This document shows positions 5,130-62,064 of a stretch of DNA of 64,000 bases, one piece after another. Origin of the DNA: Pirellulimonas nuda (lineage in GTDB: Bacteria > Planctomycetota > Planctomycetia > Pirellulales > Lacipirellulaceae); NCBI RefSeq assembly GCF_007750855.1, contig NZ_CP036291.1:992001-1056000 (forward strand). Reading direction: 5' to 3'. The position numbers and the translations under genes were made by a program. Positions within the stretch are counted from its first letter, which is position 1, and each line of letters begins with the position of its first letter. The notes under the pieces are model-generated. The model had not been told where the DNA came from and did not search any database. It saw only the letters and a list, made by a program, of their open reading frames with translations.

Positions 5130-7586
5130 ATGGACCAAGACATCCGCAACGCCGTGCTCGCCTACACGGGAAGCGCCGCCTACAAGCCGGTCAAGCCGAA
5201 GGTGATCGGTGAGCGGCTCGGCCTGGCGGGCGACGCGCTCGAGCTGGCGCGCAAGACCATCAAGAAGATGATCAAGGCGGGCGATCTGGAGTACGGCCCA
5301 AACCACATGGTGCTGCCGATGCAGCCAGGCCACGCGGCCCGCGAGGGGATCGCCGCCGCGCTCAAGCCGGGCGTGCCCAAGGTAGACGGCGCGCCGTCGG
5401 CAACCGACAAGCAGCCCGGCACCCGGGCGGCCTCGGGCGCCAAGAGCGTGGTCGGCACCTTCCGGCGGATCGGCTCGGGGGACGGCTTTGTACGCCCCGA
5501 GGGGACCCCCGCCGCCACCGGACGCGACTCCGACGTGTACGTGAACAAGAAGAACGCCGGCGACGCCGCCAGCGGCGACATTGTCCGCATCCGCATGGAC
5601 AAGCGGACCGGCTACAAGGGGAAGCCGGAAGGGAAGGTCATCGACGTCGTCGAGCGGCAGACCAACACCTTCGTCGGCACCTATCTCGAAGAGGGGGGGC
5701 AGGGGCTGGTGATGGTCGACGGCGGCGTGTTCACCGCGCCCATCTACGTCGGCGACCCCGGCGCCAAGGGCGCCAACCCCGAAGACAAAGTCGCCATCGA
5801 GATGGTCCGCTTCCCGTCGCACATGCGCGAAGGGGAGGGGGTCATCACCCAGCGGCTCGGGGCCAGCGGCGCGCCGGGGGTCGACACCATGGCCATCAAG
5901 ATCGAGTTTGCGCTCCCCGGGGAGTTCCCACCCGAGGTGCTGGAAGACGCCCGCGGCCAGGCCGAGCGCTTCGACGAGTCGATCCCCAAGACCCGCACCG
6001 ACCTGACCGGCGAGGTGGTGGCCACCATCGACCCGGTAGACGCTCGTGACTTTGACGACGCGATCTCGCTCCGCCGGATCGAAGGGGGCCACTGGGAGTT
6101 GGGGGTGCACATCGCGGACGTGTCGCACTTCGTGCAGCCCAAGACGGCGCTGGACAGCGAGGCGTACGACCGCGCCACCAGCGTCTACCTGCCCGACGAG
6201 GTGATCCCGATGCTGCCGGAGATCATCTCGAACAACTTGGCGAGCCTGCAGCCAGACAAGGTGCGCTACGCGATGACCTGCCGGATCGAGTTCACGCCCG
6301 AAGGCGTGCCGGTGGGCGCCGACGTGTTCAAGAGCGCGATCAAGAGCCGGCGCAGGTTCACCTACGAAGAGATCGACGCGTACCTGGCTGAGACAGGTTT
6401 GGTCAAGGCGAGCAAAAGCTCCCCTCCTCGGCAGGGGGAGGGGGCAGCCCCGGGGAAAACCCCAACCAAGGCAAACGCTAAGCGAGCCACCAACCCCCTC
6501 CCCAACCCTCCCCCTGCCGGGGAGGGAGTAAAGGCGACGCTCACCCCCGAGGTCGATGCGCTCGTCGCCGACATGTTCGAGCTGGCGATGATGCTCCGCC
6601 GCCGCCGGCTGGAGCGGGGCGCCCTCGAGCTGAACATGCCGGAGATCAAGGTCGACCTCGACAAGGACGGGCGGGTCTCCGGCGCGCACCTCGAGACGCA
6701 GACCGAGAGCCACCAGATCATCGAGGAGTTCATGCTGGCCGCCAACGAGGCGGTGGCGCGGAACCTACGCGACGCGGGGCTGCTGTTCCTACGCCGCGTG
6801 CACGGCGCCCCCGACCCGAAGAAGATGGCGGCCCTGACCGCGTTTGTCCGCGACCTGGGCTTCCAGGTCGAGAGCCTGGAGAACCGCTTCGAACTGCAGA
6901 AGCTGCTGGGCGAAGCGCACGGCGACCCGCGCGAGCCCGCGCTCAATTTCGCGGCGCTGCGGTCGATGCAGCGGGCCATCTACAGCCCCGAAGAAGAGGG
7001 GCACTACGCCCTGGCGAGCGACTGCTACTGCCACTTCACCTCGCCGATCCGCCGCTACCCCGACTTGACGGTCCACCGGCTGCTCGAGGCGCTCGCGATC
7101 GGCAAGAAGCCGGTGCAGGACGAGGCGGCGCTGTTCGCCGAGGGAGACCACTGCAGCGACCGCGAGCACCGGGCCGCCAGCGCCGAGCGCGAGCTAACCA
7201 AGGTGAAGCTGCTGAACTACCTGAAAGACAAGATCGGCCTGGAGATGAACGGCGTCATCACCGGCGTCGAGAGCTTCGGCATGTTCATCCAGGGAGACAA
7301 GCTGCCGGCCGAGGGGATGGTGCACATTTCGGCCCTGACGGACGACTACTACAAGTTCGACCGCGCCAGCCACTCAATTACCGGCTTCCGCGGCGGCAAC
7401 AGCTTCCGCCTGGGCGACCCCGTGCGGGTGGCCGTGGCGAGCGTCGACGTCGACGGCCGCAAGCTCGACTTCCGCCTGCTGGGCCGCGGCGAGGGCAAAC
7501 GGGCGCCCAAACCGAAGAAGACCTCCGGCCGTCCCCCCAAAGGCCGCAGCGACAAGACGGGCAAACACCGGCGCAAAAAGGGCTAG
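5130..7586 (+). CDS. rnr: Ribonuclease R with an in-frame palindrome-derived insertion
   Basis: 818 residues, a processive 3'-5' exoribonuclease. Order: winged-helix-like N-terminus (about 20-60), low-complexity linker, cold-shock/OB domains (about 105-230), RNB catalytic domain with 'DPVDARDFDDAISL' near 300, 'HYALASDCYCHFTSPIRRYP' near 630, an S1 domain (about 705-785) and a basic Lys/Arg tail. Residues about 430-466 ('PRQGEGAAPGK' to 'NPLPNPPPAGEG') have no counterpart in the family. They are encoded by a palindromic element at 6417-6527 inserted in frame in a surface linker of the RNB domain. All catalytic Asp residues remain, so the enzyme is probably active. Confidence 0.93.
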   Translation: MDQDIRNAVLAYTGSAAYKPVKPKVIGERLGLAGDALELARKTIKKMIKAGDLEYGPNHMVLPMQPGHAAREGIAAALKPGVPKVDGAPSATDKQPGTRAASGAKSVVGTFRRIGSGDGFVRPEGTPAATGRDSDVYVNKKNAGDAASGDIVRIRMDKRTGYKGKPEGKVIDVVERQTNTFVGTYLEEGGQGLVMVDGGVFTAPIYVGDPGAKGANPEDKVAIEMVRFPSHMREGEGVITQRLGASGAPGVDTMAIKIEFALPGEFPPEVLEDARGQAERFDESIPKTRTDLTGEVVATIDPVDARDFDDAISLRRIEGGHWELGVHIADVSHFVQPKTALDSEAYDRATSVYLPDEVIPMLPEIISNNLASLQPDKVRYAMTCRIEFTPEGVPVGADVFKSAIKSRRRFTYEEIDAYLAETGLVKASKSSPPRQGEGAAPGKTPTKANAKRATNPLPNPPPAGEGVKATLTPEVDALVADMFELAMMLRRRRLERGALELNMPEIKVDLDKDGRVSGAHLETQTESHQIIEEFMLAANEAVARNLRDAGLLFLRRVHGAPDPKKMAALTAFVRDLGFQVESLENRFELQKLLGEAHGDPREPALNFAALRSMQRAIYSPEEEGHYALASDCYCHFTSPIRRYPDLTVHRLLEALAIGKKPVQDEAALFAEGDHCSDREHRAASAERELTKVKLLNYLKDKIGLEMNGVITGVESFGMFIQGDKLPAEGMVHISALTDDYYKFDRASHSITGFRGGNSFRLGDPVRVAVASVDVDGRKLDFRLLGRGEGKRAPKPKKTSGRPPKGRSDKTGKHRRKKG
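6417..6527. repeat. Palindromic element read in frame inside rnr
   Basis: Left arm from 6419 (core CGGCAGGGGGAGGG) and right arm 6506-6528 (core CCCTCCCCCTGCCG) pair over about 23 nt with one gap and two mismatches, separated by about 60 nt. The 111-nt segment is a multiple of three, contains no stop in the rnr frame and encodes 37 residues absent from other RNase R proteins as I know them. It resembles the C-rich palindromes that otherwise sit between genes. Confidence 0.8.
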
Positions 7587-7607: not shown

Positions 7608-7679
7608 AGCAGCCGACCTAGGGCCGGCGCGTCTCGCGAGAAGTCGGGCTCAGAACGCGCCGACCGTAGGTCGGCTGCT
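7608..7679. repeat. Hairpin between rnr and gcvT
   Basis: Perfect 13-bp outer arms AGCAGCCGACCTA (7608-7620) and TAGGTCGGCTGCT (7667-7679) enclose a further, nearly complementary GGCCGGCGCG/CGCGCCGACC pair, giving about 24 paired bases. It could terminate rnr transcription but lacks a T-run, so it is listed as a structured repeat. Confidence 0.7.
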
Positions 7680-33740: not shown

Positions 33741-33848
33741 GGGCGAGCCGTCGGCGTCAGCCGCCGGAGGGATTTCGGAAAAACAACCGTGTGGCCGGGG
33801 TGGGCGCTGCCGCCAAAGCCTCCGGCGGCTGACGCCGACGGCTCGCCC
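33741..33848. repeat. Perfect 30-bp inverted repeat downstream of the sulfatase gene
   Basis: The arms 33741-33770 and 33819-33848 are exact reverse complements over 30 bases (core GCCGTCGGCGTCAGCCGCC), with 48 nt between. The structure begins 9 bp past the sulfatase stop. A single related arm (GCTGACGCCGGCGGCTCGCC) occurs at 37531-37550, just past the lpdA stop. A related GGCGTCAGCC core occurs at 48439-48448. It could act as a terminator, but there is no T-run. Confidence 0.85.
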
Positions 33849-40853: not shown

Positions 40854-40935
40854 AAGTCTCTCGCAGAGGCGCAGAGACGCAGAGGACATTGAGTGAACGA
40901 TTTTCTCCGCGTCTCTGCGCCTCTGCGAGAGACTT
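40854..40935. repeat. Palindrome between sucA and sucB (GCAGAGACGCAGAGG family)
   Basis: Arms 40854-40886 and 40903-40935 are reverse complements over 33 nt with only one or two differences (core CGCAGAGGCGCAGAGACGC), around a 16-nt loop. The arm itself is made of near-tandem GCAGAG units. It ends 9 bp from the sucA stop. No T-run on the minus strand, so it is not a standard terminator, and the genes on both sides belong to one pathway. Confidence 0.9.
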
Positions 40936-61860: not shown

Positions 61861-62064
61861 CCGCCAAGACGCCACGAGCGCCAAGACGCGCCAAAAAAGT
61901 CAGGACAAGCGGCGAGACCCGCGTACAAATTCGCGAAACTGCGATTGCAGTCCGAGCGTACCTCCAGATCGACAGGCATCCTTTCTTCCCGGTCCAATCT
62001 CATCGACCGGTCCGTTGCTAGTCGGATTTCTTGGCTCGTCTTGGCGCTCGTGGCGACTTGGCGG
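61861..62064. repeat. Palindrome between the caspase-like and ketosynthase-like genes
   Basis: Left arm 61861-61901 and right arm 62025-62064 are reverse complements over about 40 nt with four or five differences (core CGCCACGAGCGCCAAGACG). The arm consists of near-tandem units CCGCCAAGACG-CCACGAG-CGCCAAGACG. About 123 nt lie between the arms, with no gene seen. It ends 18 bp from the ketosynthase stop. Confidence 0.85.

Follow-up and report, generated by a model that had tools for sequence, protein, structure and literature searches.

The RNase R gene of Pirellulimonas nuda carries, within its RNB domain, a stretch of DNA that can pair with itself, and the question raised by this locus is whether a dispersed repeat has come to be read as part of a conserved enzyme. 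The gene (rnr) lies on the forward strand at positions 5130 to 7586 of the 64,000-nucleotide stretch of DNA that was analysed, hereafter the window. It is complete and encodes a protein of 818 amino acids that matches TIGR02063 with 608.3 bits (cutoff 598) and the RNB family PF00773 with 346 bits; the genome, a single contig of 6.62 Mb, has no other full-length match to RNase R. The protein has the features of its class, that is, an RNB domain with an aspartate cluster and an S1 domain. Residues 430 to 466 are encoded by positions 6417 to 6527 on the same strand, a segment of 111 nt (37 codons) that reads SSPPRQGEGAAPGKTPTKANAKRATNPLPNPPPAGEG and is free of stops in the frame of the gene. A sequence-only reading of the window had proposed that this segment is an in-frame palindromic insertion with arms of about 23 nt. 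Its extent, frame and residues were borne out by the ORF, and the estimate of the arms was close, as they measured 21 nt each (6422 to 6442 and 6506 to 6526), with 95% complementarity and 63 nt between them.

On the forward strand, the left arm, CCCTCCTCGGCAGGGGGAGGG, lacks 12 nt at its inner end in comparison with the full arm of the second IleRS copy described below. It is followed by the core region (6443 to 6505), and the right REP-like unit, recovered in the unit scan, CCCCCTCCCC-AA-CCCTCCCCC-TGCC-GGGGAGGGA, occupies positions 6494 to 6527. With up to three mismatches allowed, the arm pattern was found at two places in the 64-kb window, both of them arms of the insert, whereas shuffled sequences gave an expectation of 0.01. 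The RNA fold of the insert reached -66.1 kcal/mol (z -4.77), and none of 200 dinucleotide shuffles folded equally well. The motif DPVDARDFDD (residues 301 to 310, positions 6030 to 6059, forward strand) is intact and lies outside the insert, and in an alignment of 45 sequences 7 of its 10 columns were invariant, including D301, D307, D309 and D310. Its aspartates, which we take to be catalytic in RNB enzymes, thus remain in place, as had been claimed. The sequence, the arms, the fold and the alignment of relatives given below confirmed that positions 6417 to 6527 are an in-frame palindromic insert and that this RNase R is normal in other respects.

Other inverted repeats were noted in the window. 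Just 3' of rnr, at positions 7608 to 7679, a repeat with 25-nt arms (92% complementary) contains GTAGGTCGG and looks like a second palindrome, perhaps of the GTAG type, or a terminator. Strong inverted repeats with arms of 36 and 38 nt lie at 40854 to 40935 and 61861 to 62064, respectively; the former is GCAGAGACGCAGAG-like and resembles, by eye, a ACACGGAGACACGGAG palindrome within the DnaE2 loop of another genome (G030, locus L298). A perfect inverted repeat with 30-nt arms and 48 nt between them is found at 33741 to 33848.

RNase R loci were available from 29 of 38 relatives in the same family and order, all of which belong to other genera. The insert was missing in all 29 aligned relatives. 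A profile of the three insert peptides of this genome (one in RNase R and two in IleRS) gave strong hits in P. nuda only among 43 genomes of the family; three weak hits (E 0.0067 to 0.0075) were short frames of 42, 38 and 77 amino acids, the last of them in P. nuda itself. In 74 of 81 RNase R proteins (that of P. nuda and those of 80 loci from planctomycete records, at least one of which, L067, comes from the same genome as L031), the stretch that bears the insert has 24 residues, while it has 66 in P. nuda. The length of this loop also varied within the family in the alignment of 29 relatives, and three family relatives (L031, L032 and L035) showed, by eye, a short hairpin of a different type in this loop, which makes the site a permissive one. 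In an AlphaFold2 model of the protein (mean pLDDT 84.7, 45 sequences), the insert comes after a helix at residues 412 to 421, and residues 435 to 455, between this helix and the next one at 473 to 495, have a pLDDT below 50. The alignments with the best two RNase R matches of known structure break here, jumping from query residue 421 to 477 (8cdu) and from 415 to 480 (5xgu). The insert peptide is thus predicted to be disordered and its site to be a flexible loop. The view that such palindromes are tolerated when they land in surface loops agrees with the model as regards the loop, and its tolerance there is something that we infer.

To locate relatives of the insert in the genome itself, we searched with the 136 bases around it and obtained 24 matches. 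Besides the insert, two of these were long, 112 nt at 81% identity (E 3.6e-22) and 94 nt at 83% (E 4.8e-19) in a genome of 6.6 Mb, and both lie within ileS, on the same strand and in the same frame as the RNase R copy. The 63-nt core, used on its own as a query, recovered three copies, namely the RNase R copy and the two IleRS copies (82% and 76%); the next matches were two 18-nt pieces with an E value of 0.68, and no non-coding copy of this core was found in the genome by that search. The peptides shared through the common frame are GEGAAPGKTPTKANAKRATNPLPNPPPAGEG in RNase R and GEGAAPEQPSAKASALRATNPLPSPPPAGEG and GEG(LGEG)AAPGKTLTKAIASRVTTPSPDPSPCGGRG in IleRS. Family arms or hairpins are present at no fewer than 27 curated places in the genome, mostly outside recognised genes. 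The expectation of intergenic copies therefore held for the arms of the family and failed for the core, which is shared with two coding copies only. The opposite picture, an insertion conserved across the phylum with no copies elsewhere in the genome, failed in both halves.

The 27 places exclude those with up to two mismatches that lack a C-run/G-run arm (99787, 823634, 2322119, 2355965, 2485319, 4159359, 4786964, 5654161 and 5727154), those with three mismatches that lack a second arm nearby, and also 724535. The full unit of the family has the form CCCCCTCCCC-(2-4 nt)-CCCCTCCCC-loop-GGGGAGGGG. When up to four substitutions were allowed, 24 of the 27 places yielded 37 unit matches, of which a few are loose and one overlaps with another; the three places that lack a full unit are 1341023, 5586753 and 5940831. 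Composites of two facing arms around a core of variable sequence make up 19 of the places, and a later scan left one composite without a full unit. These are short palindromes repeated in the genome, as REPs are; a GTAG or CGTC tag, the mark of the REP superfamilies of those names, occurs near the unit end in 1 of the 37 unit matches. They also share with REPINs the arrangement of two inverted REP units and a spacer in a single hairpin, as seen in the 19 composites and in the fold of the RNase R copy. A four-run G-quadruplex motif was observed on one or both strands at 23 of the 27 arm places, in DNA that is itself G-rich, and hairpin and quadruplex could compete there.

Five composites are in frame within conserved proteins, one in RNase R, two in IleRS and two in DnaE2, and in this respect they behave like Rickettsia palindromic elements. 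The remaining 14 lie outside any long Pfam-positive ORF (short ORFs were scanned in part), except for the one at 387987, which occupies the 5' end of a phage-portal ORF, ahead of its likely start. Three single arms or hairpins also lie in ORFs, encoding an NRPS (in the AMP-binding domain), a YfbK-like VWA protein (in the vWF_A match) and UvrA; these are candidate sites and are left out of the count of insertions.

The IleRS that holds both long matches is a single ORF of 1211 amino acids (TIGR00392, 824 bits, cutoff 621); a second long IleRS match in the genome, with 27% identity, was read as a related synthetase. In the comparison with relatives, for which 29 of 38 had loci, the IleRS of several relatives carried in-frame palindromes of other sequence at the same two loops. 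Composites of the same superfamily with other cores were found in loop 2 of three genomes (G018, G006 and G002) and in loop 1 of two (G015 and G001), while loop 2 of G020 holds a palindrome unrelated in sequence. Matches to such arms numbered at least 61 in G018 (40 of 102 candidates scored), at least 72 in G006 (40 of 93), at least 67 in G042 (40 of 72) and 8 in G041 (17 of 17), and at least 43 in G002 (40 of 47) versus 2 in its sister G015; both strands of a palindrome can match, so these arm matches are not copies.

A similar pattern was seen in the DnaE2-type error-prone DNA polymerase (NF004225, 1415 bits, cutoff 939). Two composites lie in frame at ORF residues 127 to 163 and 829 to 869, and their cores are unlike the core of RNase R and IleRS. 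The comparison covered 9 of 22 relatives; L299 of G031, which matches in part and lies at the end of a contig, was omitted, and other matches of 32 to 36% identity were taken as the replicative paralogue. Both loops that carry elements here hold inverted repeats in other genomes. In G027, which belongs to another family, each DnaE2 loop has one copy of a palindrome of about 100 nt, with GTAG at its ends, that is that genome's own; it has at least 82 genome matches at about 41 places on both strands (40 of 672 candidates scored), and its copies are 94 to 98% identical on the better strand.

The arm family also reaches other genes of the relatives. In G018, G006, G042, G041, G002 and G015, 16 of 60 arm loci lie inside an ORF of at least 350 codons that extends at least 60 codons past the arm on each side, and 9 of 10 such ORFs that were scanned had a Pfam domain, the other having none. 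They encode an aminotransferase (with the arm within the domain), a further IleRS, two UvrA proteins, an ABC protein, two DNA methylases, an Fe-S protein and a glycosyltransferase with the arm between domains. We noted that the UvrA of G042 and that of G018 (L211 and L216) have an in-frame arm at a common site, that the ABC protein of G002 (L254) bears its arm in frame, and that the DNA methylase ORFs L209 and L223 (G042 and G006) carry family arms in frame at the same place, past the matched domain.

Inverted repeats in whole genes were counted with mismatches allowed, a score of at least 14 and a span of 40 to 280 nt, and the expectation was taken from three codon shuffles per gene. Under these settings, which were picked after the outcome of a first scan, IleRS had 14 inverted repeats versus 1.0 expected (30 genes) and DnaE2 had 8 versus 1.0 (10 genes), while RNase R had 3 versus 0.67 (30 genes), which is little excess, and the P. 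nuda insert alone sits in the loop. The repeats cluster: 12 of the 14 in IleRS are near residues 587 to 696 (including 669 to 692), 792 to 833 and 939 to 943, and 7 of the 8 in DnaE2 are near residues 121 to 167 and 824 to 872. The first scan, with exact 14-nt arms, had given 5 versus 2.2 expected for IleRS, 8 versus 1.9 for DnaE2 and 3 versus 2.8 for RNase R; it was dropped because it was overly strict about mismatches and admitted very small hairpins too readily. Some inserts recognised by eye, namely IleRS copy 1 and DnaE2 copy 1 of P. nuda and the relatives' L176 and L180, are missed by the final scan.

Whether the intergenic palindromes of this genome are mobile, as had been suggested, was examined from two sides. 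First, no recognisable arm was found in about 1.5 kb of flanking sequence on the 15 Y1_Tnp loci of P. nuda; weak strings with up to three mismatches were dismissed by eye, and some arm-like strings at these loci are hairpins of IS200-like elements. In the corresponding flanks of 26 Y1_Tnp loci from four relatives, we found one clear arm and one string with a single mismatch. The clear arm, near a Y1 gene of G042, was considered as a transposase link but fits chance, about one being expected per 26 loci by a rough estimate from match numbers; six background loci proved unfit for this check, most arms there being the IleRS inserts themselves. REPINs adjoin RAYT genes whose flanks bear the same REP; apart from that one arm, no such arrangement was found in P. 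nuda or in the four relatives. As a separate observation, P. nuda has five IS200-like Y1 transposase genes that are almost identical (L158 to L162), with a small hairpin of their own nearby, and this IS200-like element has perhaps been active recently. Second, the flanks of 18 composites had no target-site duplication of the kind that marks the ends of a MITE: the shared flank word had a mean length of 4.0 versus 3.9 in shuffles, and 180 of 500 shuffles were as good. The 7-nt word AAGGCGA, which flanks the RNase R insert at either end and was a candidate duplication, was rejected on this test. The relatives compared, being of other genera, included no close one with an empty site. With neither a transposase association nor a target duplication, we thus infer mobility from the copies rather than observe it: the dispersal of the family speaks for the suggestion.

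Given these results, we consider it probable that the insert is a dispersed, non-autonomous, REPIN-like palindrome that was copied into rnr and survives as near-neutral selfish DNA. Such an element would consist of two inverted REP-like units of C-runs and G-runs flanking a variable core, and it would have copied itself, or been copied by an enzyme acting in trans, into rnr. The copy would have survived there because its length kept the frame, because one of its frames is free of stops and because the peptide, rich in Pro, Gly and Lys and predicted to be disordered, falls within a loop of that enzyme's RNB domain. On the same account, this genome would have seen five or more entries of the family into conserved genes (one in RNase R, two in IleRS and two in DnaE2), and palindromes from related genera, in some cases of unrelated sequence, would have entered the same IleRS and DnaE2 loops. 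The effect on RNase R is most likely near-neutral, as would be expected of selfish DNA filtered by what the protein tolerates.

A possible alternative, to which we give clearly less weight, is that ectopic gene conversion or template switching carried the segment between ileS and rnr, in one direction or the other, with no intergenic palindrome as its source, in which case the coding copies would form a separate lineage with an open core. That all three core-sharing copies are in frame in genes and that a non-coding copy was not found would fit this scenario. In G018, near-full-length alignable elements lie in the same frame in IleRS and in an acyl-CoA ligase, and the ligase copy (75%) is the only other near-full-length one among the matches listed, with 40 of 102 candidates scored. 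Coding composites also have more open frames, on average 3.4 of 6 (n=5) versus 1.5 of 6 in the other composites (n=14), although some of this difference is inevitable, as no copy can be coding unless at least one frame is open. Base-shuffled sequences had means of 3.6 to 4.2 open frames for the coding group and 1.6 to 3.9 for the others, so the coding composites are near, and the others mostly below, the level set by composition. However, the core-sharing copies number just three, the two DnaE2 copies have different cores, and non-coding cores may have lost their likeness because they have no frame constraint. The G027 palindrome also speaks against this scenario, as both of its coding copies are members of a near-identical family: among 12 loci of it, 2 are the DnaE2 sites, and of 6 of the other 10 whose spanning ORFs were scanned with Pfam, 5 matched no family and 1 matched PF10712, which is presumably an antisense artefact.

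We regard it as unlikely that the insert has been retained by selection for a useful peptide or mRNA hairpin, for example one that tunes the activity or translation of RNase R, IleRS or DnaE2. The hairpin is strong (z -4.77), and the enzyme classes that recur here, that is, UvrA, DnaE2 and tRNA synthetases, recur likewise in PMC3733652, whose authors speculate about a useful role of REPs in repair genes. Against selection on the peptide, its sequence is unlike between genera at the same loop, and it is predicted to be disordered. The dN/dS ratio of the coding cores was tried as a sign of such selection and discarded: dN was lower than dS in two of three pairs and higher between IleRS copies 1 and 2, an inconsistent result from 16 codons, which is too short. 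Finally, ordinary low-complexity drift of a variable loop, with the palindrome and the likeness arising from GC-rich composition, is very improbable, because, even though loop length varies in the family and GC-rich codons yield Pro/Gly-rich peptides, it is contradicted by the two long matches elsewhere in the genome, and both the arm pattern (0.01 expected in the window) and the fold (z -4.8 versus dinucleotide shuffles) exceed what composition gives.

A copied, REPIN-like palindrome, the reading that we prefer, has relatives among known systems. According to a 2013 study (PMC3733652), GTAG- and CGTC-tagged REPs occur inside genes, with many in uvrA, dnaE2, recB and other repair genes and some in tRNA-synthetase genes; they are most numerous in O. 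terrae, a verrucomicrobium from the superphylum to which P. nuda belongs, and in R. conorii, and tagged REPs are present in Planctomycetes. The elements described here resemble them in being short palindromes or inverted pairs, in frame, in uvrA, dnaE2 and tRNA-synthetase genes and at times twice per gene, so the kind was already known. However, our units have no tag at their ends (1 of 37 excepted) and sit in a planctomycete host; as they fail the GTAG/CGTC test, they are a variant distinct from tagged REPs. In the same study, intragenic REPs were at different sites except for one same-site case (recB), and flexible linkers or loops were proposed as their locations, whereas here other palindromes recur in the same loops across genera. 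The composites are similar to REPINs in their two inverted REP units, variable spacer and single hairpin, and single units occur too, but REPINs as described in PMC3116915 are extragenic and adjoin RAYT genes, while several of ours are coding and a RAYT association was not found. Rickettsia palindromic elements, likened here by description as given in the review PMC2229807, are about 105 to 146 bp long, form a strong hairpin and are tolerated in frame in many conserved proteins; the host is another one, and in P. nuda 5 composites are in frame among at least 27 places. The sequence-only reading knew of no planctomycete equivalent. Among the matches listed from the open-access literature we found no paper on in-frame palindromes in Pirellulales, and to that extent it stands, but in-frame REPs in many bacteria, and tagged REPs in Planctomycetes, are on record in PMC3733652. 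The untagged repeat and its recurrence in the same loops look new.

These findings place a planctomycete beside Rickettsia and some other bacteria in which repeats are read as protein in important enzymes with the gene visibly undamaged, and they suggest that palindromic DNA can add tolerated stretches to proteins. They also call for caution in taking Pro/Gly-rich inserts of planctomycete proteins for domains, since such inserts may instead be repeat DNA. The presence of different palindromes in the same loops across genera amounts to a set of natural replicates in which it may be asked whether such insertions are tolerated, targeted or sometimes useful. We tentatively put forward, as a conjecture that may well fail, that the palindromes of Pirellulales are a standing source of new protein segments, with each genus's own families re-entering the same loops of IleRS, DnaE2, UvrA and RNase R above the rate expected from insertion plus survival. 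If this is true, those loops would be traps or preferred targets for such elements.
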